From contig JAJDAE010000287.1 in assembly GCA_029262035.1 (NCBI GenBank), positions 1 through 38,499 of the forward strand: a stretch of DNA of 38,499 nucleotides, read 5' to 3'. A program made the position numbers and the translations under genes. The notes beneath the pieces are model-generated. The model made no database searches and was not told where the DNA came from. It saw nothing but the letters and a program-made list of their open reading frames with translations. The DNA comes from Candidatus Zhuqueibacterota bacterium (GTDB lineage: Bacteria; Zhuqueibacterota; Zhuqueibacteria; Oceanimicrobiales; Oceanimicrobiaceae). Position 1 is the stretch's first letter, and each line of letters starts with the position of its first letter. Below, piece by piece: positions 5,868 through 36,520 of the stretch.

Positions 5868-6671
5868 TTAGAACTTTCCCACAACCCGCTCCTTCACCGG
5901 TAAAATCTCCAGACAAGTTGTCCACCAACCGGTGCGCACTGTTGCTACAAACTCCTGCGGAATACCCTCTTCCTGCATTTCATTTGCAAGGCGCTCGTGG
6001 TCATATTTTAACGGGATAAAATCAATTTTTCCGGATGTGTGCAAAATGGAATACCAGACGTTGGTTTGACCATCGTTTTCCGGGCGGCCAATAACACCGA
6101 CGTTGGCAAATGTATAACCGTTCAATTGCCGCTGCCAATGCAGGCCTGTATGCGTGGTTAAAATGATGTCCGCTTCATAATCCACGAACTGCTTTTCTAA
6201 AAAATGCTCCGGTGTGGTGGACTCCCACAAAAACTCATTGGTCTGGCGTGGGGAGCCGTGGCACAGTAAAAGCTTTTTACCGCCAAATTCCAACCGGATT
6301 TCTTTGGGGAGATTTTTCTGCCAAAGCTTAAATTCATCGCAGGTATTGGCAAAAGTGTAGTCGTAGCTGATTTGCGCAAAATGGTTATCGCGCGGGTCGG
6401 TGTAGCCGCACTGGCAATCATCCAGATTATTACCGATGGAATTGTCGTAATTGCCCTGAACCACTTCTATTTTATTATCAAGCAGCAGCGGGAAAACTCT
6501 ATCCGGATGCGGCCCGAAAGCACCCAGATCGCCAAGACAGTAAAAGCGCTCAACGCCGCGTGATTTTGCATCTTCAATGAGTGCCTGCAAAGCGAGATAG
6601 TTGTTGTACACGCCGCCAAAGACGGCTATTTTGTTATCTTCTATTTTTTTCAATTTGTTACGTTCTCTCAC
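5868..6671 (-). CDS. metallophosphoesterase-fold protein with substituted metal ligands
   Basis: The fold is recognisable as a YfcE/MJ0936-like calcineurin phosphoesterase: a first strand, FYCLGDLGAFGPHPDRV, VVQGNYDNS, LLCHGSPR and a final NVGVIGRP. The usual first motif DxHGN reads GGVYNN (Asp to Gly, His to Tyr), and the final GHTH reads THTG. The GD, GN-D and CHGSP motifs are kept. The middle holds a distinctive CQCGYTDPRDNH segment with two Cys and a His. It is either a non-canonical phosphoesterase or a binding protein. It is third in order after the radical-SAM fusion and the methyltransferase on the same strand, separated by 229 bases. The N-terminus is uncertain: GTG at 6671 has no clear ribosome binding site, and the TTG at the sixth codon is possible. 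Confidence 0.75.
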   Translation of the reverse strand: MRERNKLKKIEDNKIAVFGGVYNNYLALQALIEDAKSRGVERFYCLGDLGAFGPHPDRVFPLLLDNKIEVVQGNYDNSIGNNLDDCQCGYTDPRDNHFAQISYDYTFANTCDEFKLWQKNLPKEIRLEFGGKKLLLCHGSPRQTNEFLWESTTPEHFLEKQFVDYEADIILTTHTGLHWQRQLNGYTFANVGVIGRPENDGQTNVWYSILHTSGKIDFIPLKYDHERLANEMQEEGIPQEFVATVRTGWWTTCLEILPVKERVVGKF

Positions 6672-6709
6672 ATGTGCGTTACATCACTCTCTTATCGCTC
6701 CCCTCTCGC

Positions 6710-6773
6710 GAGACTGTCGAAAAGTCCGGCCACTGTCATTGCTGTGACATGTATTTTTCTTTTTCGACGTCTC
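6710..6773. repeat. nested imperfect inverted repeat between cluster genes
   Basis: GAGACTGTCGAAAAG (6710-6724) is complementary to CTTTTTCGACGTCTC (6759-6773), apart from a one-base shift. Inside lies TGTCA/TGACA (6734-6738 and 6745-6749) around TTGCTG. A further short stem, GGAAG-acaaa-CTTCC, lies just downstream near 6810. This may be an RNA element between the methyltransferase and phosphoesterase genes, or a dispersed intergenic repeat. The 229-base gap holds no credible gene. Confidence 0.45.
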
Positions 6774-6900
6774 CGAAGGCCGGGGTGGGTTCTCCCAATA
6801 AGTAAGCTGGAAGACAAACTTCCAAACCTCCTGCCACTACAAAACATTCCTCTGTTTTACGCTCTGTACAAGCGCAAAACTGTCTCCCTGCGAAGAGAGA

Positions 6901-8103
6901 TTAACAACACCCATCCGTATCACAAGCAGGACCATCGCTTAGCTCCGTCACATTGTACTCCTGACCCTTGGTTTCTTTTGCATGACGGCGTGCACTTTTG
7001 TTGCAGGCAAACGAAGCCGCTTCTGCCAACGGAATATCGTTATATGGCTCAATGGGAATAATGTGCTCGGCATAAGGCGCCTTTTGGTAGATGTTGTAAG
7101 TTTTGTCACATACCGCCATTCTTTCGCCGCGGTAGAGTGTATGGCCGTCATCGTCCAGAACTGCCTTCCAGGGGCCTTTATAAATTACGGCCTGATTGCG
7201 CTCCTGACAGGGGCCTTCTTTGCCTTTAAATGCAGTAATGGTGACAGAACGAAATTCAATGTCTTCGACGGTTTGCCAAGGTTTCTCATCGCGCTTTTCA
7301 ATTTGAATGCCGTAAAAACCAAGTTCCGCAAATTGATTTACAAAATCGTCTTCGACAAAAGCGCCCGAAATACAACCGCTCCACAAAGTAGTATCATTTT
7401 TAAGATGGTCCGGTACAACTTCATCCGAAACAATATCTGAAATTGCAACTCGCCCGCCCTTTTTCAGAACCCGAAAAATTTCCTGTAAAAGCTGCTTTTT
7501 ATCTTCATCCTGAACCAAATTCAAAACACAGTTGGAAACTACCAGGTCCACCGATTCATCCGGTATCAACGGCTGATTCTTTTTTTGATCGGCCACAACT
7601 TCTTCATAACTCAGCAAATCGGAAGCGTTGGAAATCGGATTTTCTTTTAAGTAGCTTTCAGACTTATCCAGGTCCAGTCGTAAGTCCTGAATTTTCCCCC
7701 GATGAAATTCGACATTTTGATAGCCGATTTTATCGCCGACTTCCTGACGGTATTTACGGGCAAGGTCTAACATTTCTTCATTCACATCCACGCCGATAAC
7801 CCGGCCTTCCTTGCCAACCATTTGCGATATAATGTAGCAAATTTTTCCACCGCCACTACCAAGATCAAGTACGGTTTCACCAGGCTGAACATAACGCGAG
7901 GGATCACCACAACCGTAATCGCGCTCAATAATTTCCTGCGGGATAACTTTGAAAAATTTTGTGTCGTATTCAACCGGACAGCACAAAGCTGCCTCCTGTG
8001 CTTTCGCGCCATCGCTATATCTTTCACGAACCGATTTTTCAACATTTAATTTAGTTGAATCCGTTTTAGTGAAACCGTTGGAAGTGTCGGTAGTTATGCT
8101 CAT
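6901..8103 (-). CDS. ArsM-like SAM-dependent methyltransferase with Cys-rich C-terminal extension
   Basis: This is a class I SAM methyltransferase. Motif I is VLDLGSGGGK (near residues 78-87), the acidic residue ending strand 2 is in VIGVDVNEEML, and SNCVLNL and FRVLKKGGRVAISDI follow. Cys65 (in YGCGD), Cys192 (SNCVLN) and Cys244 (SGCISG) correspond in position and context to the three As(III)-binding cysteines of ArsM arsenite methyltransferases. An insertion of about 25 residues lies between the first two. CC at 41-42 is also typical of the family. After residue 290 there is an extension of about 110 residues (RGERMAVCDKTYNIY, SARRHAKETKG) ending CDTDGCC, a likely thiolate metal site. The gene lies 15 bases after the radical-SAM fusion, so the two are almost certainly cotranscribed. 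The fold is certain; the arsenic substrate is inference. Confidence 0.82.
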   Translation of the reverse strand: MSITTDTSNGFTKTDSTKLNVEKSVRERYSDGAKAQEAALCCPVEYDTKFFKVIPQEIIERDYGCGDPSRYVQPGETVLDLGSGGGKICYIISQMVGKEGRVIGVDVNEEMLDLARKYRQEVGDKIGYQNVEFHRGKIQDLRLDLDKSESYLKENPISNASDLLSYEEVVADQKKNQPLIPDESVDLVVSNCVLNLVQDEDKKQLLQEIFRVLKKGGRVAISDIVSDEVVPDHLKNDTTLWSGCISGAFVEDDFVNQFAELGFYGIQIEKRDEKPWQTVEDIEFRSVTITAFKGKEGPCQERNQAVIYKGPWKAVLDDDGHTLYRGERMAVCDKTYNIYQKAPYAEHIIPIEPYNDIPLAEAASFACNKSARRHAKETKGQEYNVTELSDGPACDTDGCC

Positions 8104-8118
8104 TTTGTGTTAACCTTT

Positions 8119-10323
8119 TTAATTGTTAGAATTTGATGAAGAAAAATTGTGGCAAATCGCGCCGGATATATAACATGTGTAGCATGCCTGATTTTTTAAC
8201 GCATAGGGTACGAATGAATCCTTCAAAGTATCCGAAACCTTGGCCTCAGGGTAGTCTATCAAAATTGGACAAACATAAACTCCTTTATCCGTGACCATGC
8301 GACTGCTGGTGCATTGTAAAAGATTATCATCATAATCATGCAACATGGCTTTAGTTATACGTTCATATTTATCGTAACCGTGGCTACGCACTTTCTCGCG
8401 GCCGATTCTCAATGGTGGAATGGTTTTAAAACGAGGCCTGTTGTAGCCAATTCCTGTCAACATTTTCTTGAACCCATCGAAGACAATTTCTGTCTCTGAA
8501 TCTTCCCAGGTTTGAGCAGCGGTAATAATCGGCAAAAAGTCGTACTTCACCAGATTTGCCACACCATTCATTGCTTTTTCAAAGCTCCCCGCGCCTCGGA
8601 TTTTATCATTGGTTTCCGGAGTGAAACCATCAATGCTAACTCGAATTTCCAGAGAAAATTCTGAGTTATCTACAATTTTTTTCAATCGTTTGGCAGTCCG
8701 TTCCTGAATCATAATGCCATTTGTTAAAACTGTCGCTGGCCCAATTACAAGCGTGTCCTCCAAAATGCCAAGCATGTCCTGATTCATAAATGGCTCACCA
8801 CCCGTAAAATAATACTCCTTTACACCGATTGCTTTTGATTCCTCCAGATACTTTTTTACGACCTCCCTTTTCATAAATTCAAATTTATGATTTTTAGGGC
8901 TGCAGCTTATAAAACAATGCGTGCACCAAAGATTACAAATTGTGCCACCAACTTGAAACCAAAGCGTGTCGAGTTTATGAAGTGGCGCCCACGCAGTTTC
9001 GGTATTATTGGCAGGCGTAGTTTTTACAGCACTCTTTTTCCCATTATTTTCATCGAAAGTGTTATGACTTTTACCATTTCCATTTTTGCCGCCGGCATGA
9101 AGGTTTAATTCCGGCTTACCTGTTATCAATGAAAAAACTTCAACAATCTGCTCTAAGCCCGTTCGTATTAGAAATGTAGAATTACGTCCATAGCTTTTGT
9201 TGCCAAGAATAAAAAAGTTAGGCTCCGGATTTTTTAAGGTATTAGCGCCAAGGCTTTGCTGTTCTAGGCAATCGGCAGATGATGCGCCAAGCAGGGCTGC
9301 GGCCAGCTTCATGGGGCCGCGCGACGCATAACATTCATGCACCTGAAGCTCCCGGTAAAGCGAATTATCCGGACCGTACCCGACATTTGCGATAATTCTA
9401 TCAACCGAAATATCTTGTGTATTTTCTCCGAGTTTGAGTGTTACTTTGAACTGGTCGCTCTTTTCATTAAACTCAATTTTTGAAATTGATGCGTTAGCAA
9501 TAAATTCAATATTGCTATTTTTTGATTGCACGGCTTCATTTGCGATGGCTGTTAGTTTAGAACGTCCTGGCAGCGGGTCGTCTGCAATTTCCGGGATCGG
9601 GATTTGACGATTTTGCCTAATTGCCCAAACGAGTTCTGTATCTGGTTCTTCTTTGACTAAATTTAAAAAGTCGCAGATTGTGGTTGCAGCAGAATAACCA
9701 GTACCAACAACCAATGTTTTCTTTCCGGCAAATCGAGTTCTGCCTTTGCCATAAATATCGCAGATGTGGTAGTCAATTTTGGGTTGATTTTTTAGCTCTC
9801 CCAGCGCGGGAATACCCCCATCACCAATAAAATTGGGATTGCCATAAACGCCGCTGGCATCGAGAACATAGTCTGCAAATTCATAGCGTTCGTTACCCTC
9901 GCTATCTGATATCAACAGTTTAAATTTATGGCTGGTTCTGTCGGAACTACCAATTAAATCGCCTTTTAAAATATTTTCCCTGCCAATGGATATGACAGTG
10001 GAGCCTGTAAAAATTTTATTTTTAAGTATTGACAATTCACTTAGAGGCTGCAAATATTTGCTAACGTAATCCCGGCCTGTTAAAAAAACATCTGCGTTCG
10101 GCTCTTGCCAATCAGGGTAATTATTTTTAATTTCTGCGACGCCAAGCACAGAGCAGTTCATTTGCCAGGGAGAAAATAATGAAACATGTCCCCATTTTAG
10201 CATGTTGCCGCCGACTCCGTTTTTTTCAAAAACAACAATATTAAAGCCAAGCTTGGCAGCATAAAGAGCGGCTTCCAGGCCAATAGGACCGGCACCAATT
10301 ATTGCAAGTTTATTTTCTGTCAT
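8119..10323 (-). CDS. fused FAD-dependent oxidoreductase / radical SAM enzyme
   Basis: One 734-residue frame carries two enzymes. Residues 1 to about 410 resemble a flavin-dependent monooxygenase/thioredoxin-reductase-like protein: GAGPIG at 10-15 binds FAD, and a second Rossmann motif VVGTGYSA (205-212) probably binds NAD(P)H. A Gly/Asn/Lys-rich linker (about 411-455) leads to a radical SAM domain. That domain has the CNLWCTHC cluster motif (Cys473, 477, 480), then FISCSPKNH and the SAM-binding YYFTGGEPF (504-512). The C-terminus has further cysteines (QCTSS, YVCPILID, ACYTCYISGAICHN) in a SPASM-like arrangement, possibly holding an auxiliary Fe-S cluster. The ATG at 10323 follows AAGG and a consensus promoter. 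It is first in the cluster. The substrate is unknown. The flavoprotein half could supply electrons or oxidise the same substrate. Confidence 0.85.
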   Translation of the reverse strand: MTENKLAIIGAGPIGLEAALYAAKLGFNIVVFEKNGVGGNMLKWGHVSLFSPWQMNCSVLGVAEIKNNYPDWQEPNADVFLTGRDYVSKYLQPLSELSILKNKIFTGSTVISIGRENILKGDLIGSSDRTSHKFKLLISDSEGNERYEFADYVLDASGVYGNPNFIGDGGIPALGELKNQPKIDYHICDIYGKGRTRFAGKKTLVVGTGYSAATTICDFLNLVKEEPDTELVWAIRQNRQIPIPEIADDPLPGRSKLTAIANEAVQSKNSNIEFIANASISKIEFNEKSDQFKVTLKLGENTQDISVDRIIANVGYGPDNSLYRELQVHECYASRGPMKLAAALLGASSADCLEQQSLGANTLKNPEPNFFILGNKSYGRNSTFLIRTGLEQIVEVFSLITGKPELNLHAGGKNGNGKSHNTFDENNGKKSAVKTTPANNTETAWAPLHKLDTLWFQVGGTICNLWCTHCFISCSPKNHKFEFMKREVVKKYLEESKAIGVKEYYFTGGEPFMNQDMLGILEDTLVIGPATVLTNGIMIQERTAKRLKKIVDNSEFSLEIRVSIDGFTPETNDKIRGAGSFEKAMNGVANLVKYDFLPIITAAQTWEDSETEIVFDGFKKMLTGIGYNRPRFKTIPPLRIGREKVRSHGYDKYERITKAMLHDYDDNLLQCTSSRMVTDKGVYVCPILIDYPEAKVSDTLKDSFVPYALKNQACYTCYISGAICHNFSSSNSNN

Positions 10324-10351
10324 TATTTACCTTAAAAATGGTTTAATGTAA

Positions 10352-10371
10352 ATATGCATAAAAATGCATAT
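10352..10371. promoter_or_regulatory. 20-bp perfect palindrome in the leader of the radical-SAM cluster
   Basis: ATATGCAT and ATGCATAT are separated by AAAA, a perfect dyad. It lies about 8-27 bases after the predicted transcription start and before the start codon at 10323. Its location suits an operator or an mRNA hairpin. I do not recognise the cognate regulator. Confidence 0.55.
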
Positions 10372-10385
10372 AGCTTCAAACGCTA

Positions 10386-10414
10386 ATTATAAAGTTATTA
10401 TTCCCAAATGTCAA
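10386..10414 (-). promoter_or_regulatory. consensus sigma-70 promoter of the radical-SAM cluster
   Basis: Read on the minus strand, TTGACA (10409-10414), a 17-base spacer and TATAAT (10386-10391) match both hexamers perfectly. Transcription would start near 10379, giving a leader of about 56 bases to the start codon at 10323. Confidence 0.85.
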
Positions 10415-10953: not shown

Positions 10954-11895
10954 CTAATAAGTCTCGGCAAGTAATTGGAGTTTTATTTTAAAATCTTTTA
11001 AATCGGTAACTTGAACAGCACCTATATGGCGAATCAAAACTTTAATTGTTTCAACTGCCTGACCACCGACAAAAATGGTGGTGTCTGCCGGAAGATTTTT
11101 TTTAAGATGGGTGAACTCCGAGACCAAGTCTATACCGGTTTCAGGGTATACAACGCTTAAACCTATTGCCTTTACATTTCTTTCTTTGGCAGCCAAAAAG
11201 ATTTCTTCTGCCGGCAAATCAGCACCCAGGTAAGTTACATTCCATCCGTTGGACGCAGCAATTACGGATGCAATTAAAGCACCCAACTCATGCTCTTCTC
11301 CGCTCGGAGTTGTAATTAAAATACCCGGCGCATCAGCTTCAACATTGAAGGCCAACCGCATTGTGCATAAAAACGTTTTTAAAATACTACTTGCAAAATG
11401 CTCCTGCGCGATCCTTAAAGTACCGCTGTGCCAGCGCTCACCAATTTTTTGAATTAAAGGGACGATAAACCGGTAAATAAAACAATCGTTGTGCAATGCT
11501 ATAGAAGTTCTTAAAAGTTCATTTTCAAACGCTCTTGCATCCATTTTTTCAACAGAGCACAAACAAATATTTATATGGTCATCAACAAAGTCTTCGTCCT
11601 GGATAACTTCCGGCGCATCAGAAATTTCTGTGGGCTCAGAGTTATTATCAAGGGATAGTTTTTTTAAATCTTTCTTCGACAAATTCGCAATCAGTCCAAT
11701 AGCATGCCCCATCTGAGTCGCTTGTCTTAACAAGGTAAGCCGTTCAACTTCACCCTGACAATAAAAACGCCTGTTTGTTGAGGATCTATTAGGGCAGATG
11801 GCACTATAGCGTTTTTCCCAGGCACGAATTACATGTGCACTCAAACCAGTCATTGCTGATACAGCACGCATAGAGTAACATTTTGAACTCTTCAT
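10954..11895 (-). CDS. CarH/LitR-type B12-dependent photoreceptor transcriptional regulator
   Basis: The N-terminus is a MerR-type winged helix (YSMRAVSAMTGLSAHVIRAWEKRY, residues 7-30). A helical B12-binding cap follows, with the W-x9-EH signature (Trp155, Glu165, His166; a further His156 follows the Trp). Then comes a cobalamin-binding Rossmann domain, with PSGEEHELG giving His202 as the lower cobalt ligand. The spacings match Thermus CarH closely (Trp to His 11, His to His 36). Such proteins bind 5'-deoxyadenosylcobalamin, repress in the dark as tetramers, and release DNA on illumination. I place the start at ATG 11895 (313 residues), not the ATG at 11937, because a consensus promoter lies between the two. 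The start would then be essentially leaderless. It is divergent from the peroxiredoxin and sigma-factor genes. Confidence 0.88.
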   Translation of the reverse strand: MKSSKCYSMRAVSAMTGLSAHVIRAWEKRYSAICPNRSSTNRRFYCQGEVERLTLLRQATQMGHAIGLIANLSKKDLKKLSLDNNSEPTEISDAPEVIQDEDFVDDHINICLCSVEKMDARAFENELLRTSIALHNDCFIYRFIVPLIQKIGERWHSGTLRIAQEHFASSILKTFLCTMRLAFNVEADAPGILITTPSGEEHELGALIASVIAASNGWNVTYLGADLPAEEIFLAAKERNVKAIGLSVVYPETGIDLVSEFTHLKKNLPADTTIFVGGQAVETIKVLIRHIGAVQVTDLKDFKIKLQLLAETY

Positions 11896-11901
11896 AAGCA
11901 A

Positions 11902-11930
11902 ACTATAGAGAATTGTCGAAGTATTGTCAA
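11902..11930 (-). promoter_or_regulatory. carH-like gene promoter with 11-bp-spaced operator half-repeats
   Basis: On the minus strand, TTGACA (11925-11930), 17 bases and TATAGT (11902-11907) form a near-perfect promoter whose start falls at the ATG at 11895. TTGTC occurs on the plus strand at 11913 and 11924, exactly 11 bp apart, inside the spacer and -35 box. The known CarH/CarA operators are 11-bp direct repeats overlapping the -35, so autorepression is likely. Confidence 0.75.
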
Positions 11931-11992
11931 GATTCATATCGGTTATACTAAATAAAATTTTAGCAACAATAGTAGAAAAGTATATTTTTATC

Positions 11993-22727: not shown

Positions 22728-23630
22728 TTAGTCTTGAAAAGAAACGCCTTGGTTCTCAACTTCTGAAACCAAAACCTGAGCTGCTATTTCTTTTTCCTCG
22801 GCCAAAGCACGCCAATGGTTCTGTAATAGAGTTTCTTTGTCTTCAGTAAAACAAAGTAGAGTTGAGCCGGAACCGCTGATACATACACCAAGGGCGCCGT
22901 TTTCATAGGCGATTTCTTCAAACTCATCGTAACCTGGGAGAAGTTGTTTGCGGAAAGGCTGGTGAAGTTTGTCCTGCATAGCAGTCTTCAGAGAACCAAA
23001 GTCACCGGTAAGAAAAGTATGGGTAAGTAAAGCACTGCGTTGTACATTAAAAATAGCCTCATCGTAAGCAACCAAAACTGGTAAAACTTCACGGGCATCC
23101 TCTGTCGAAACACTTGTTTCCGGAATTAGTAAAACTGCTTTAAGCGAATTGGTAATTTCAATCTTTCTAGAAATTATTTCTCCATTGTTTATGCAGTTTG
23201 TGGTGAACCCGCCATAAAGTGAGGCGGCGGCATTTTCAGGATGGCCTTCAATTTCATGAGCGAAATTTAAAAGTTCCGAATTAGAAAATTTGTCATCAAG
23301 TAATTTATTGGCTCCGGCTAAACCGGCAATAATTGCAGCGCCACTACTACCAAGACCTCGACAAAGTGGGATGGGGTTTTCAATATTTATTGATAAAAAC
23401 GGTAACCTCGCGCCTGCCTTTTCATAAATTTTTGCAGCGGCTTTGAAGATGAGGTTGGTTTCATCTAATACAATATCTTGCTCACCTTCTCCGCTATAAC
23501 TGATTTTTAAACTGTCGGCTAAACTTACTTCAACATTTAAATATATGTTGAGAGCCAGTCCAAAAGTGTCAAAGCCCGAACCAAGGTTTGAGGTGGATGC
23601 CGGGATTTTTAGTTTGATGCTTTTAGACAA
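22728..23630 (-). CDS. thrB: homoserine kinase
   Basis: This 300-residue GHMP kinase phosphorylates homoserine to O-phosphohomoserine for threonine synthesis. The N-terminal IPASTSNLGSGFDTFGLALN is the ThrB substrate/Mg region. CRGLGSSGAAIIAGL is the GHMP phosphate-binding loop, and GVCISGSGSTLL near the C-terminus is motif 3. The length is typical of ThrB. The start overlaps the stop of pyrE by 8 bases, so translation is probably coupled. The pairing of pyrimidine genes with thrB in one operon is unusual and not functionally explained. thrA and thrC are not in the window. Confidence 0.95.
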   Translation of the reverse strand: MSKSIKLKIPASTSNLGSGFDTFGLALNIYLNVEVSLADSLKISYSGEGEQDIVLDETNLIFKAAAKIYEKAGARLPFLSINIENPIPLCRGLGSSGAAIIAGLAGANKLLDDKFSNSELLNFAHEIEGHPENAAASLYGGFTTNCINNGEIISRKIEITNSLKAVLLIPETSVSTEDAREVLPVLVAYDEAIFNVQRSALLTHTFLTGDFGSLKTAMQDKLHQPFRKQLLPGYDEFEEIAYENGALGVCISGSGSTLLCFTEDKETLLQNHWRALAEEKEIAAQVLVSEVENQGVSFQD

Positions 23631-24195
23631 GTTTACGGCTCCCCGGTTTTACGACAGGTCCCAATTCAGCTAGTTTTGGATCATCTGCTGAAAAGGTTTC
23701 GATTTGTAATGAAATCAATGACTTGTAAGGCACGCCCAATTCTGTTTTTCCGCCGCTACGATCAACAATACAGCCAACTGCAATGGGTATGGCGCCCAGG
23801 TCACGAACAGCTTGAATGACCTCCTTTACAGAACCTCCGGTAGTCACAACGTCCTCAACCACCAAGACCTTTTCACCCTTTTCAATTTCAAAATTGCGGC
23901 GTAGAGTCATTTTGTCATTTTCGCGTTCAGCGAACAGCGCACGAACACCCAATGATCTTGCAACTTCATGGGCGACAATTATTCCGCCAATTGCAGGAGC
24001 TATCACCAAATCAATCCCTTGATCACAAAATTTTTGCGCTAAATGTGAACAGAGGCGTTCAGCATGTTGGGGATGCTTTAAAACCTGGGCACATTGGAAG
24101 TATTCCTTGCTGTGCAAACCAGAAGTCAAAACAAAATGACCGGTGAGTAACGCTCCGGTTTTTTTAAAGATATCGAGAATTTCTTTATCAGTCAT
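23623..24195 (-). CDS. pyrE: orotate phosphoribosyltransferase
   Basis: This 190-residue enzyme joins orotate to PRPP to make OMP in pyrimidine synthesis. VLVVEDVVTTGGSV is the PRPP-binding signature of type I phosphoribosyltransferases. The N-terminal LLTGHFVLTSGLHSKEYFQCA is characteristic of the OPRT orotate-binding end, and RALFAERENDKMTLRR supplies the mobile loop. The gene begins three bases after the pyrF stop and overlaps thrB, all on the minus strand. The ATG at 24195 gives the family length. Confidence 0.95.
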   Translation of the reverse strand: MTDKEILDIFKKTGALLTGHFVLTSGLHSKEYFQCAQVLKHPQHAERLCSHLAQKFCDQGIDLVIAPAIGGIIVAHEVARSLGVRALFAERENDKMTLRRNFEIEKGEKVLVVEDVVTTGGSVKEVIQAVRDLGAIPIAVGCIVDRSGGKTELGVPYKSLISLQIETFSADDPKLAELGPVVKPGSRKLV

Positions 24196-24198
24196 AGC

Positions 24199-25014
24199 TT
24201 AAATTGAATTCCTGATTTCATTCATTTGCTGTTGCATAGATTGAGCTTCGCTTGCTGCAGCTTCGGCAAAGTCCAATCCGGAAGATTTATAAATAATGCT
24301 CCGACTTGCGTTAATTAAAACTGATTTCCCCTGTGTATCAGCACCCATTAAAATTGAATCTTCCAAGCTGCCTCCTTGCACGCCAACCCCCGGGATCAAA
24401 AAGGGTAATTCAGGCGCTGCTTTTCTTATTTTTTTTATTGAAGCCATATTTGTCGCACCAACAACAAGTCCGCAGTTTTTATTGGTGTTCCATCCATTTG
24501 CTTTTTTCGCAACTTCTAAATAGAGCGTGCTATTTTCTGTTTTCAATTGTTGAAAGTCAGTTGAACCCGGATTCGATGTCAGAGCCAAAATAAAAACACC
24601 CTTTTCCGGCCATTGCAAAAATGGGGCGATGGAATCTGTCCCCATATACGGGCTTACAGTTATTGCATCAAAATCCATTTTCTTCAAAATGGCCTCTGCA
24701 TACTTTTGCGAAGAATTCCCAATATCCGCCCGTTTAGCATCAGCTATTTTAATGACGCCTACAGGGATAATCTGTACGAGCCGTTCAAGTGCATCCCAAC
24801 CTTTGGTACCTTCTGCCTCAAAAAATGCAAAATTAATTTTGAATGCACAGGTGTAGGAAGCGGTGCTTTCAATAATTTCTTTACAAAATTTAAAAAGAGA
24901 ATCAGTCTCATTTCTTAGCGTATTGGGAAGTTTGTTTAAATCCGGATCAAGGCCAACGCACAGTACGCTATTTTGCAAATCAATTATTTTATTAAGTTTA
25001 CTCGTAAAGTGCAT
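24199..25014 (-). CDS. pyrF: orotidine 5'-phosphate decarboxylase, type 2
   Basis: This 271-residue enzyme decarboxylates OMP to UMP. VLCVGLDPDLNKLP at the N-terminus and FKINFAFFEAEG and IKIADAKRADIGNS are the hallmarks of the longer (type 2) OMP decarboxylases; the KxxDxKxxD-type catalytic core lies in DAKRADIG. The C-terminal PFLIPGVGVQGG binds the phosphate. First of a pyrF-pyrE-thrB operon that runs through UMP formation. Start at ATG 25014. Confidence 0.95.
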   Translation of the reverse strand: MHFTSKLNKIIDLQNSVLCVGLDPDLNKLPNTLRNETDSLFKFCKEIIESTASYTCAFKINFAFFEAEGTKGWDALERLVQIIPVGVIKIADAKRADIGNSSQKYAEAILKKMDFDAITVSPYMGTDSIAPFLQWPEKGVFILALTSNPGSTDFQQLKTENSTLYLEVAKKANGWNTNKNCGLVVGATNMASIKKIRKAAPELPFLIPGVGVQGGSLEDSILMGADTQGKSVLINASRSIIYKSSGLDFAEAAASEAQSMQQQMNEIRNSI

Positions 25015-33223: not shown

Positions 33224-36200
33224 ATGGGTATTAATTTTCTGTTCTCACTAGTCATCTTTGTTCTTACCACTTTTTTTATAAATAATCCTTCTGAAAGTTT
33301 TGCTGAGAGTACCGGTCTAACCAAAGCCATAAAAGCCGCAACAAATAAGAATTATGCCGAGGCCGTTTCTATTCTAAAATCGGAAATTGGCAAGGATTCG
33401 TCAAATCACCAAATCTATCTTAAGCTAGCTGATTTTTTTCATCTAAGCAAAACAGAAAAAGCTGGTATCGCTTTTTTTAAGCGGGCGATTAAACAAAATC
33501 CGATTGAGCCCAATAGTTACGCTGGGTTAGCGGTGCTGTACGATTATCAAAAGGATGAAACGCAAAGCTTTTTGAATAGTCGGAAAGCGCTGGAAAAGGG
33601 TCATGACGCATACCGGATATTAGAATTGTTTATTGAGGCCGGGATTGCGCTTAATAAATCTGATGAATTAAGCGGAACGCTACGAGCTTTTCAAAAATTA
33701 GAAACCCGAAAACATCTCTATTCTTTAGGCTACACTTTGTGGCGTATTAAAATAAGGAATTATAAAAGAGCGGGCACAACACTTGCAGAATTTCTTAAAA
33801 AAAACAATGACCACGGTTACGGATTAAAATTGGCTGGAGATATTGCGCGGTCTGAAAAAAATATCCGCAAGGCTATTAACAATTATCTGCGAGCCGAAAA
33901 ACAGTTGACAAATACCGATGAGAGAATAAAGAGTGAGCTCTATGCTGAGTTCGGCTCAACTTACTTGAAGCTGGGTCAGGCTGACTCTGCCGAGTTTTAC
34001 TACAAAAAATCTATTAATTTCACCAGATCAACATTACAAATACCACAATTTATTAAAAGCGTTAAAAGCATAGCAGCCTTTTATCGTGGAAAAAGTGATA
34101 TCCGGAATTTGGTTGCAACTTTATCCGAAAACAGTGAATTGTTTTTGCAAAATATTGACGATGCCGCAAGATTAGATTTTATTTATGATTTGGCAGAGGC
34201 ACATAATAATTCTGGAGATTTTTTAAAAGCATTCGAGTTTTTTTCTCAGGCACTTGAAATGGCAAAAACACTCAAAAGTAATAAAAAACAGGCTCAGATT
34301 TTTTATACAATGGGCGAGTATTATTTAAAGTTGGGCTTAACCGGGAAAGCCTTAGACTGTTATACTAAAAGTATTAATGCTGCGGACAAAGCAAAATTGT
34401 CTGAGCTAGAACACAAAGCCGTTTTTGAGATTGGCAAGATTTATGCACAATCAGGTGACCGTGAAGCTTCTAAAAAAAAGTTTTCCAAAGTATTGAGACA
34501 TGCTCAACGTCGGCAACAACTAGGATTGATCGAAGAATCTTATTTGCGGCTTGCGCACTTACATTTGCAGCAACCGTCTGATTTAAGAAGTGTACGCTAC
34601 TATTTAAATATGGCCGATGCAATGGCGAGGCAGACATTTCAATTGCATTTTGCAGCAAATCACCGTTGGATGCAAGGTTCGATGGCTCTTTTAGAAGAGG
34701 ATGTTGAAATTGCCGAAACTTACTTTTTGCAATCCATAAACATAGGGGAAGAAAGCGGGTCATATCTTTCCAGGCTGGCCGGTAAAGCAGGATTGATAAA
34801 AGTTTACCTCCACACCAATTTTAGTGATATGGCCTGCTCCTATGCCGATTCGGCGCTTATATTTTTGGAGAATTATTACTCGCATTGTTTTTCAGAATAT
34901 TCTGCGGATTTCTTTGATTTAAAAAATGATCTTATCATGCCCGCATTAATGGCTTATTCTTCAATCGGTAATCTGGAAAAAATTTATGATACGATCGAGC
35001 TTTATAAATCAATCATTCATTATAAGGAATTGAATCAAATAAAATATAAACTAAAAGATAAAACAGCCATATCTATCCAAGAAAAGCTCGACACAATATC
35101 TGAACAAATAAATAGTAAATGGCAGAAATTATGGACGGTTAGCCGTGATAAAAATGAGTATCTGGAGACCGCTTTCAGAATTAAAAATGAAATACATGCT
35201 TTGCATGTAGAGCAAAGAAAATACCTCCTTGAAGTTTCAAAAAATCATCCCAAATATTACTCGCTTTTTAAGCCGGAATCTACCCCTTTAGAAGAGTTGC
35301 AAGAAAAACTTAAAAAAGGAAACAATACATTTATTGATTATTTTATCGGGGAGCTCGCAACATTTGTTGTTGTTGTTAAAGGCAACAGTATAAACTGTCA
35401 ACGGGTGAATGCAAACCGTAAATTTCTGGAAAATCACATTTTTCAAGTCAGCCCGCTTTTTAGTACCGAAAAAAATAATTTTAGTATTTTGAATTATTCT
35501 GATATTTCTCAATTTAGCCTGGAACATGCAGGAATTCTGTATAAGTATCTATTTCAACCAATAGAACCATGGCTAAGGCCTGATGAGACTTTGATTATAT
35601 CGAAAGATGGTGCTTTAAATCGGATACCTTTTGAGGCATTGGTATTAAATTCAGATCAGCTTATTGATAATTCAGACTTTTCAAATGCAGTTTTTCTGGT
35701 AGAAAAGTACGCCATCTCCTATTTACCATCCGCCAACTTCTTGAGAACGACCAAAAAGGAAAAGCGTGATAGTGAAAAATTGCTGGGATTGTTTGCCACA
35801 TCTCAAAATGATGGTGTTGGGAGCAACGGACGCCCCCAAGATAGTCCCGTAAAAAAGATAAACCGAATCCAGAGTTTCCAAAAATTTATAGAACCATTCG
35901 GTGAACACAGGTCAACTCTTTTTCTGAACAAATTTGCAAACAGAGAAAACTTTATTACTCGAGGCTCGCAGTTTCAATTTCTTCAAATTAGCCTGCCCGC
36001 CTCTTTAAATGAACAATTCCCATTCCTGTCCAACTTTACTTTTGCAGATCAAACTCACGACACCTTTTCGGCCTATGAATTATTTACTCAGCCGATTAAT
36101 TCAGATATTTTTGTTCTAACAGACGCAGCAGTTAAATTAGCAAAAACGGGTTCCCAGATAGCCACCAATGGATTCTTTCATGGTTTAACTTTTGCAGGTG

Positions 36201-36520
36201 TCCCCACTTTTGTTACATCACTGTGGCGGCTTCAACAATCAGAACCTGGCTCTGTTGCTGATATTCTATTTAAATTTGAGAATAATTTGCGAGAAGGTTC
36301 AAATAAAGCAAAAGCGTTACAGCAAGCAAAGATTGAATATTTGAAGGAAAACCGTGTTAATCCATTTTTTTGGGCGAGCCTTGTTTTGTATGGGGATACG
36401 AGTGCAGTGAAAATTGAAGAGGCGCAAACACGTTGGGTTATTTGGTTTTCAGTTTTAGCGGTTTTAACTTTATGTGTGTTTTTGGGAATACAGTTGTTGA
36501 AGGTTTTCCGGGGAAAGTAA
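33224..36520 (+). CDS. TPR-repeat protein with degenerate CHAT-like domain
   Basis: This 1098-residue protein opens with a hydrophobic signal-like segment (about 1-27). Tetratricopeptide-type helical repeats follow across roughly 30-530 (for example YLKLADFFHLSKTEKAGIAFFKRAIK, GKALDCYTKSINAADKAK). From about 695 there is a CHAT (caspase-like) domain: FIDYFIGELATFVVVV, TLIISKDGALNRIPFEAL (near 790) and AGVPTFVTSLWRL (near 993). The protease His (usually in HxATHG) and Cys (usually in LSAC) are absent: the corresponding strands read FLQISLPAS (near 916) and VLTDAAVKLAKTG (near 963). A C-terminal membrane anchor (about 1070-1092) ends the protein. It is probably a non-catalytic scaffold in the envelope. 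It has its own promoter and is convergent with the amidase gene. Confidence 0.85.
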   Translation: MGINFLFSLVIFVLTTFFINNPSESFAESTGLTKAIKAATNKNYAEAVSILKSEIGKDSSNHQIYLKLADFFHLSKTEKAGIAFFKRAIKQNPIEPNSYAGLAVLYDYQKDETQSFLNSRKALEKGHDAYRILELFIEAGIALNKSDELSGTLRAFQKLETRKHLYSLGYTLWRIKIRNYKRAGTTLAEFLKKNNDHGYGLKLAGDIARSEKNIRKAINNYLRAEKQLTNTDERIKSELYAEFGSTYLKLGQADSAEFYYKKSINFTRSTLQIPQFIKSVKSIAAFYRGKSDIRNLVATLSENSELFLQNIDDAARLDFIYDLAEAHNNSGDFLKAFEFFSQALEMAKTLKSNKKQAQIFYTMGEYYLKLGLTGKALDCYTKSINAADKAKLSELEHKAVFEIGKIYAQSGDREASKKKFSKVLRHAQRRQQLGLIEESYLRLAHLHLQQPSDLRSVRYYLNMADAMARQTFQLHFAANHRWMQGSMALLEEDVEIAETYFLQSINIGEESGSYLSRLAGKAGLIKVYLHTNFSDMACSYADSALIFLENYYSHCFSEYSADFFDLKNDLIMPALMAYSSIGNLEKIYDTIELYKSIIHYKELNQIKYKLKDKTAISIQEKLDTISEQINSKWQKLWTVSRDKNEYLETAFRIKNEIHALHVEQRKYLLEVSKNHPKYYSLFKPESTPLEELQEKLKKGNNTFIDYFIGELATFVVVVKGNSINCQRVNANRKFLENHIFQVSPLFSTEKNNFSILNYSDISQFSLEHAGILYKYLFQPIEPWLRPDETLIISKDGALNRIPFEALVLNSDQLIDNSDFSNAVFLVEKYAISYLPSANFLRTTKKEKRDSEKLLGLFATSQNDGVGSNGRPQDSPVKKINRIQSFQKFIEPFGEHRSTLFLNKFANRENFITRGSQFQFLQISLPASLNEQFPFLSNFTFADQTHDTFSAYELFTQPINSDIFVLTDAAVKLAKTGSQIATNGFFHGLTFAGVPTFVTSLWRLQQSEPGSVADILFKFENNLREGSNKAKALQQAKIEYLKENRVNPFFWASLVLYGDTSAVKIEEAQTRWVIWFSVLAVLTLCVFLGIQLLKVFRGK

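Follow-up and report, generated by a model that had tools for sequence, protein, structure and literature searches.

What could be made by a flavoprotein/radical S-adenosylmethionine (SAM) fusion, an ArsM-type methyltransferase and a phosphoesterase-fold protein that are encoded side by side in a Candidatus Zhuqueibacterota bacterium? The three genes lie in contig JAJDAE010000287.1 of assembly GCA_029262035.1 (G000:C209 in our numbering), whose 38,499 nucleotides we analysed as a whole and call the window, and which belongs to a 5.3 Mb draft genome that is 96% complete. Judging from its anatomy, conservation, motifs and gene neighbourhoods, we lean towards reading the locus as an organoarsenical cassette in which a radical SAM enzyme would make a C-As bond, probably of arsenosugar type, outside both the ArsS and the ArsL systems. 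In the open reading frame (ORF) list the genes occupy 5868-10323, with gaps of 15 base pairs (bp) between fusion and methyltransferase and 229 bp between methyltransferase and phosphoesterase, and the features of the locus are as follows:

10386-10414, minus strand: sigma-70 consensus promoter TTGACA-17-TATAAT, exact (0.03 expected per window in shuffles)
8119-10323, minus strand: flavoprotein/radical SAM fusion, 734 amino acids (Pfam Pyr_redox and Radical_SAM in one ORF)
9090-10323, minus strand: flavoprotein half, FAD and NAD(P) binding (Pfam Pyr_redox_2, alignment A4, full-length match to L117)
8119-9024, minus strand: radical SAM half with a SPASM/twitch-like five-Cys C-terminus (Pfam Radical_SAM, alignment A1)
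8914-8937, minus strand: CxxxCxxC iron-sulphur cluster motif of the radical SAM half (A1 columns C30, C34, C37)
6901-8103, minus strand: ArsM-type SAM methyltransferase, 400 amino acids, with Cys65/Cys192/Cys244 and a CC at both the N- and the C-terminal end (Pfam methyltransferase domains, NF040538, CmArsM alignment)
5868-6671, minus strand: CAR1-like metallophosphoesterase-fold protein, 267 amino acids, a probable arsenate reductase with one metal site lost (Metallophos_2, CxC, fold search)
6408-6416, minus strand: CxC pair Cys86-Gln87-Cys88 of the phosphoesterase (aligned with the CxC of ars-operon phosphoesterases)

The preliminary description of this DNA had placed three same-strand genes behind a perfect sigma-70 promoter, and so they are, with the promoter reading exactly from 10414 to 10386. 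Apart from L001, which is this very site in this genome, none of the retrieved loci has the exact promoter, so that no conservation among relatives was seen.

Is the gene combination itself conserved? The preliminary description had named this beforehand as the point on which its proposal would stand or fall, and the neighbourhood was found in genomes of two families, f1 and f8: radical SAM enzyme, phosphoesterase and flavoprotein occur together in 16 genomes (some with contig breaks), and the methyltransferase is inside 12 of these 16 cassettes. Flavoprotein, radical SAM enzyme and ArsM have the same order in all seven f1 relatives, and the phosphoesterase comes next wherever the contig continues (that of G006 stops before it). 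The two-enzyme fusion that had been described is real in the window, where both domains are in one ORF, but it is not a defining trait of the family, since flavoprotein and radical SAM enzyme are separate ORFs with a 4 bp overlap in all five f1 relatives checked, the G004 copy is frame-shifted, and among the cassettes of the 16 genomes the fusion is intact in the window alone. The order in f8 (eight genomes) is radical SAM enzyme, phosphoesterase, PHO4 transporter and ArsM, TIGR04169 AhpD-like protein and flavoprotein; the transporter and ArsM lie outside the cassette in genus g15 of this family, and the cassette of G054 is divided over two contigs. Identity to the window within f1 is 68-82% for the radical SAM halves and 55-62% for the flavoprotein halves. 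The phosphoesterase is 64-76% identical across both families and is therefore under constraint. A phosphoesterase profile run against 82 genomes of the phylum gave no further close member, only two weak matches near 1e-19, and a scan of genome contigs with a single protein gave two loci, L044 from a closely related candidate division KSB1 metagenome assembly (to all appearances the contig G005:C93) and a distant radical SAM protein, L045, with no recognisable arsenic genes in its neighbourhood. We found no description of the combined cassette in the open-access literature. In g15 a glycerol-3-phosphate-dehydrogenase-like FAD protein follows the cassette that lacks ArsM and PHO4 (L058 5451-7004 and L059 5688-7259, both minus strand; L060 10067-11875 and L065 2576-4384, both plus strand).

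What does the phosphoesterase do? It had been called degenerate, which is correct in that three metal ligands are replaced (D to G20, H to Y22 and H to G176) in 13 of 13 cassette phosphoesterases, but this was left unexplained and a better reading is now available. D48, N74, H138 and H174 are retained in all 13; assigning these positions to two metal sites as in MJ0936-type enzymes, we take the three lost ligands to be one site. All 13 also have Cys86-x-Cys88. A CxC is present in seven of ten ars-operon phosphoesterases versus one of six from outside ars operons (a small, hand-chosen sample), and the three ars-operon proteins without it are two tandem second copies and the one from Flammeovirga. 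The relatives in the PDB are calcineurin-like (3qfm, 3rqz and 1nnw); our structure model, in which the CxC loop has low confidence, was used for the fold only. On plasmids, the proteins closest to that of the window come from ars operons in several phyla, arranged ArsR-phosphoesterase-arsM in Paraclostridium, arsM-ArsR-phosphoesterase-ArsC in Rubrobacter and ACR3-phosphoesterase-phosphoesterase in Mucilaginibacter, and further relatives are in ars operons of Hymenobacter, Pedobacter, Adhaeribacter and Flammeovirga. According to PMC12124457, the metallophosphoesterase that adjoins arsM in ars operons resembles Car1, the arsenate reductase of Rufibacter tibetensis, and keeps two cysteines (Cys74, Cys76) that are essential in Car1. 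CAR1 itself arose by evolution of a metallophosphoesterase towards arsenate reduction. Because of its CxC pair and the ars-operon setting of its nearest plasmid relatives, the third gene is most simply predicted to encode a CAR1-type arsenate reductase. It shares with CAR1 and Paraclostridium Orf1 the metallophosphoesterase fold with CxC and a gene that adjoins arsM, and it differs from them in being linked to a radical SAM enzyme and in that it and a Roseomonas homologue (below) have lost one metal site (D to G, H to Y, H to G); the ars-operon relatives have the full ligand set, and the cassette proteins have G, Y and G at the D20, H22 and H176 equivalents. The cassette displays a CAR1-type fold that is losing its metal ligands yet retaining its redox cysteines. 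Tandem metallophosphoesterases also lie near an FAD/NAD(P)-binding protein on a plasmid of Picosynechococcus sp. PCC 7117 (L122 3998-5565), where no ars gene is annotated; the first of them has a CxC (CEC), and two of its metal ligands are replaced by Cys.

The methyltransferase, METHYLTRANSFERASE (window gene 6901-8103), was correctly credited in the preliminary description with three ArsM-type cysteines and a Cys-rich tail: Cys65, Cys192 and Cys244 align with cysteines of the CmArsM structures and are invariant in 12 aligned cassette methyltransferases, all of which terminate in CC. We take the aligned CmArsM cysteines to be the arsenite-binding ones, so that the protein has the three conserved arsenite-binding cysteines by which ArsM/AS3MT enzymes are recognised. 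Among 59 relatives (relatedness uncorrected), an ArsM of the cassette subtype is present in 13 of 15 cassette genomes versus none of 44 others. Its best NCBIfam model is NF040538, the arsinothricin ArsM, and this would favour an arsinothricin-type cassette, to which we give little credence for the following reasons: the score is 381.4 bits against a cut-off of 500 that none of the relatives passes, identity to an annotated arsinothricin ArsM is 38.9%, and the closest plasmid ArsMs are ordinary ones from Staphylococcus ArsR-permease-ArsM operons (54.6% identity) and Cupriavidus (49.3%). The cut-off and these closer relatives rule out equivalence to the arsinothricin ArsM. The arsinothricin cluster arsQML (PMC8552651) likewise combines a radical SAM enzyme with an ArsM, but the cassette has no ArsQ and its radical SAM enzyme is not ArsL-like (below). 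The Staphylococcus operons (L106 6711-9224 and L108 5915-8452) read ArsR-permease-ArsM-small ORF. In G017 a single 452-amino-acid ORF (L043 631-1989, minus strand) seemingly joins an ArsM to a GNAT (ArsN-like) acetyltransferase, and long ArsM-like ORFs resembling it occur in other f8 genomes.

The flavoprotein points in the same direction. Both annotated plasmid relatives that we opened are in ars operons (ArsR-flavoprotein-ArsK or ArsR-flavoprotein-MFS), and the flavoprotein half matches one such ars-operon protein, L117, over its full length. The ArsR-flavoprotein-ArsK setting is that of ArsV, a link made through operon position. ArsV is a flavin monooxygenase that oxidises organoarsenicals (per a title cited in PMC11719878). 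Likeness to the ArsV type here refers to homology, along the whole length, with the flavoprotein encoded in such operons, and the cassette protein differs from these operons' flavoprotein in its ~35% identity and in being paired with a radical SAM enzyme, to which it is fused in the window. It does not belong to ArsO: an f8 cassette flavoprotein scored 32.3 bits with NF040505 (cut-off 425), a model that is absent from the 25 best NCBIfam matches of the window fusion.

Because relatives of the phosphoesterase, the methyltransferase and the flavoprotein are found in arsenic neighbourhoods, context makes arsenic very probably the substrate. That it is instead another oxyanion or thiophilic element (phosphorus, antimony or selenium) is highly improbable; sequence cannot reveal substrates, and the accompanying transporters are of phosphate/phosphonate type, but several separate families each have arsenic neighbourhoods and the methyltransferase retains the arsenite cysteines. 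Could the locus then be a detoxification operon, in which arsenate is reduced and methylated, the flavoprotein carries out an oxidation, and the radical SAM enzyme is auxiliary, for example remodelling organoarsenicals? The relatives of the three other proteins are all found in ordinary ars operons, as this would require, but we consider it unlikely. No ArsR and no exporter were seen in the cassettes, and those of f8 have an uptake-type PHO4 carrier; the window's own genome has, elsewhere, ArsR-ArsM-ArsN2 (C151) and ArsR with ACR3 (C245), separate loci that serve detoxification; and the linked radical SAM enzyme, TIGR04169 and glycosyltransferases (below) would be left unexplained.

What, then, is the radical SAM enzyme? 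Its invariant cysteines in A1 are C30, C34, C37, C238, C252, C281, C284 and C291. ArsS and ArsL are cited as the two C-As bond-forming radical SAM enzymes of bacterial natural products (PMC12159101). It is in neither group. With the ArsS model TIGR04167 (cut-off 300 bits) it scores 58.3 bits in the window and 60.1 in the genome search, which rules out ArsS membership, and it forms a separate clade. The C-terminus of the fusion, said not to look like ArsS, is not clearly unlike it: its five cysteines are spaced similarly to those of ArsS, but hhalign profile comparison aligns the core only, and such C-terminal Cys spacing is general for SPASM/twitch domains. An ArsL-type enzyme was rejected as well: ArsL is absent from the 25 best NCBIfam matches of the window fusion, and the annotated ArsL of L109 aligns with the cassette enzyme at the cluster motif only. 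The structure model is poor (pLDDT 54). Outside the cassettes, the closest relatives that came to light are distant ones, L045 (BMS3Bbin10) and a protein of Roseomonas haemaphysalidis plasmid p546-1, and a profile of these two sequences matches the cassette family over almost the whole length, C-terminal cysteines included (hhalign E 2.7e-36). The Roseomonas operon (L110 2010-8970) has the order TIGR04282 arsenosugar glycosyltransferase, DUF547, radical SAM, radical SAM, PhnD-type binding protein, PhnE, ATPase and metallophosphoesterase; the first radical SAM protein is TrsS/Tes-like and the second is the cassette relative, and in the phosphoesterase, a distant relative, the CxC pair is present and ligands are lost just as in the cassette protein (FGGxYxN). 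Radical SAM enzyme, altered CAR1-like protein and an oxyanion-type importer therefore co-recur in another phylum, with a non-homologous importer, and L110 is possibly an alphaproteobacterial version of the system. A bolder proposal, which we regard as doubtful, is that the enzyme represents a third class of enzymes that form arsenic-carbon bonds, with a reaction unlike those of ArsS and ArsL, with arsenite coming from the redox-repurposed phosphoesterase, electrons from the fused flavoprotein, and an arsenical (perhaps an arsenolipid head group) new to bacteria as its product. If a third C-As radical SAM enzyme is indeed conserved in this uncultured phylum, accompanied by an arsenate reductase and an uptake gene of its own but by no gene for efflux, it would point to deliberate use of arsenic rather than detoxification.

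Links to arsenosugars come from other families. The arsenosugar-associated AhpD protein TIGR04169 is above cut-off in 14 copies in 13 of 60 genomes, of which seven adjoin ArsS and seven are in the cassette (7 of 8 f8 cassettes), and it has no other setting in this group. Two glycosyltransferase models, TIGR04283 and TIGR04282, are tied to arsenosugars by NCBI. TIGR04283 is passed in 14 of 15 cassette relatives versus 3 of 44 others, and of the 21 genomes that have the cassette or ArsS, 18 have TIGR04282, among them eight cassette genomes without ArsS, versus 4 of 38 others (relatedness uncorrected in both). The window's own genome has TIGR04282 on C159 (193.6 bits, cut-off 134) and TIGR04283 on C352 (227.6 bits, cut-off 182), neither linked to the cassette; in G054 a TIGR04282-like gene (125 bits) lies between the transporter and the phosphoesterase. 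On C159 (L134 4327-7269) the TIGR04282 gene is lined up with genes for a lipid kinase of the YegS family, for WbqC and for a GT2 glycosyltransferase, possibly a lead towards arsenolipids but only that. The importers in f8 and Roseomonas, and the presence of ArsS in four f8 genomes, would also suit breakdown or salvage of organoarsenicals from the environment (arsenosugars, arsenolipids), in which the radical SAM enzyme would cleave a C-As bond. This we think quite unlikely, since reducing arsenate and methylating it belong to synthesis, the importers are phosphate/phosphonate-type ones and the glycosyltransferases track the cassette.

How might the synthetic cassette that we prefer work? Arsenate would enter, in f8 by the PHO4-type carrier, and the CAR1-like protein, by analogy with CAR1, would reduce As(V) to As(III) through its CxC pair. 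ArsM, judged by its cysteines and family, would methylate As(III), and the radical SAM enzyme may form another C-As bond. The likeliest route would be that of ArsS, in which the methylated arsenical receives the 5'-deoxyadenosyl group from SAM, although the enzyme is outside the ArsS family. The flavoprotein could adjust the redox state (it might, for instance, oxidise a trivalent arsenical) or supply electrons to the radical SAM enzyme to which it is fused here, and the unlinked TIGR04282 and TIGR04283 glycosyltransferases may finish the sugar. The ArsM-ArsS arsenosugar cassette with TIGR04169, which is present in cyanobacteria and also in f6 and part of f8, likewise has an ArsM-type methyltransferase and a radical SAM enzyme with the similarly spaced C-terminal cysteines, and shares TIGR04169 (in f8) and TIGR04282/TIGR04283 in the same genomes. 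It differs in its radical SAM clade, in its ArsM subtype and in lacking the added CAR1-like protein and flavoprotein. We file the locus as a variant among organoarsenical biosynthetic cassettes, outside the ArsS and arsinothricin systems.

Several observations weigh against this interpretation. With 58-60 bits the radical SAM enzyme falls far short of the 300 set for ArsS, and it has GGEP in place of GGAP; f1, the window genome included, lacks TIGR04169; and TIGR04282 and TIGR04283 are unlinked to the cassette in most genomes, their names being NCBI inferences and TIGR04282 a 'hypoth_equivalog'. The co-occurrence counts are from a cassette known in two families only and, as said, uncorrected for relatedness. 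G017 and G030 are without an ArsM of the cassette subtype. The four f8 genomes with canonical ArsS have the cassette too, so the product may differ and the two systems are not simply interchangeable. Activity and product are predicted only. Of the pathway proposed in the preliminary description, arsenic and a conserved, undescribed combination are borne out (by the neighbourhoods of the phosphoesterase, methyltransferase and flavoprotein, and by an arsenosugar-type one for the radical SAM enzyme); action of the radical SAM enzyme on arsenic, and the product, are putative.

In the window as a whole no RNA families or tRNAs were found. The next gene upstream of the cassette (10954-11937, minus strand) encodes a MerR-type regulator with B12-binding domains that is CarH-like (130 of 400 bits) and was not seen adjoining the cassette in relatives. 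At 22728-25014 (minus strand) there is a tight row of an OMP decarboxylase/HUMPS-family protein, a phosphoribosyltransferase-fold protein and a GHMP kinase, and 33224-36520 (plus strand) encodes a 1098-amino-acid TPR protein with a CHAT protease domain at its C-terminus.

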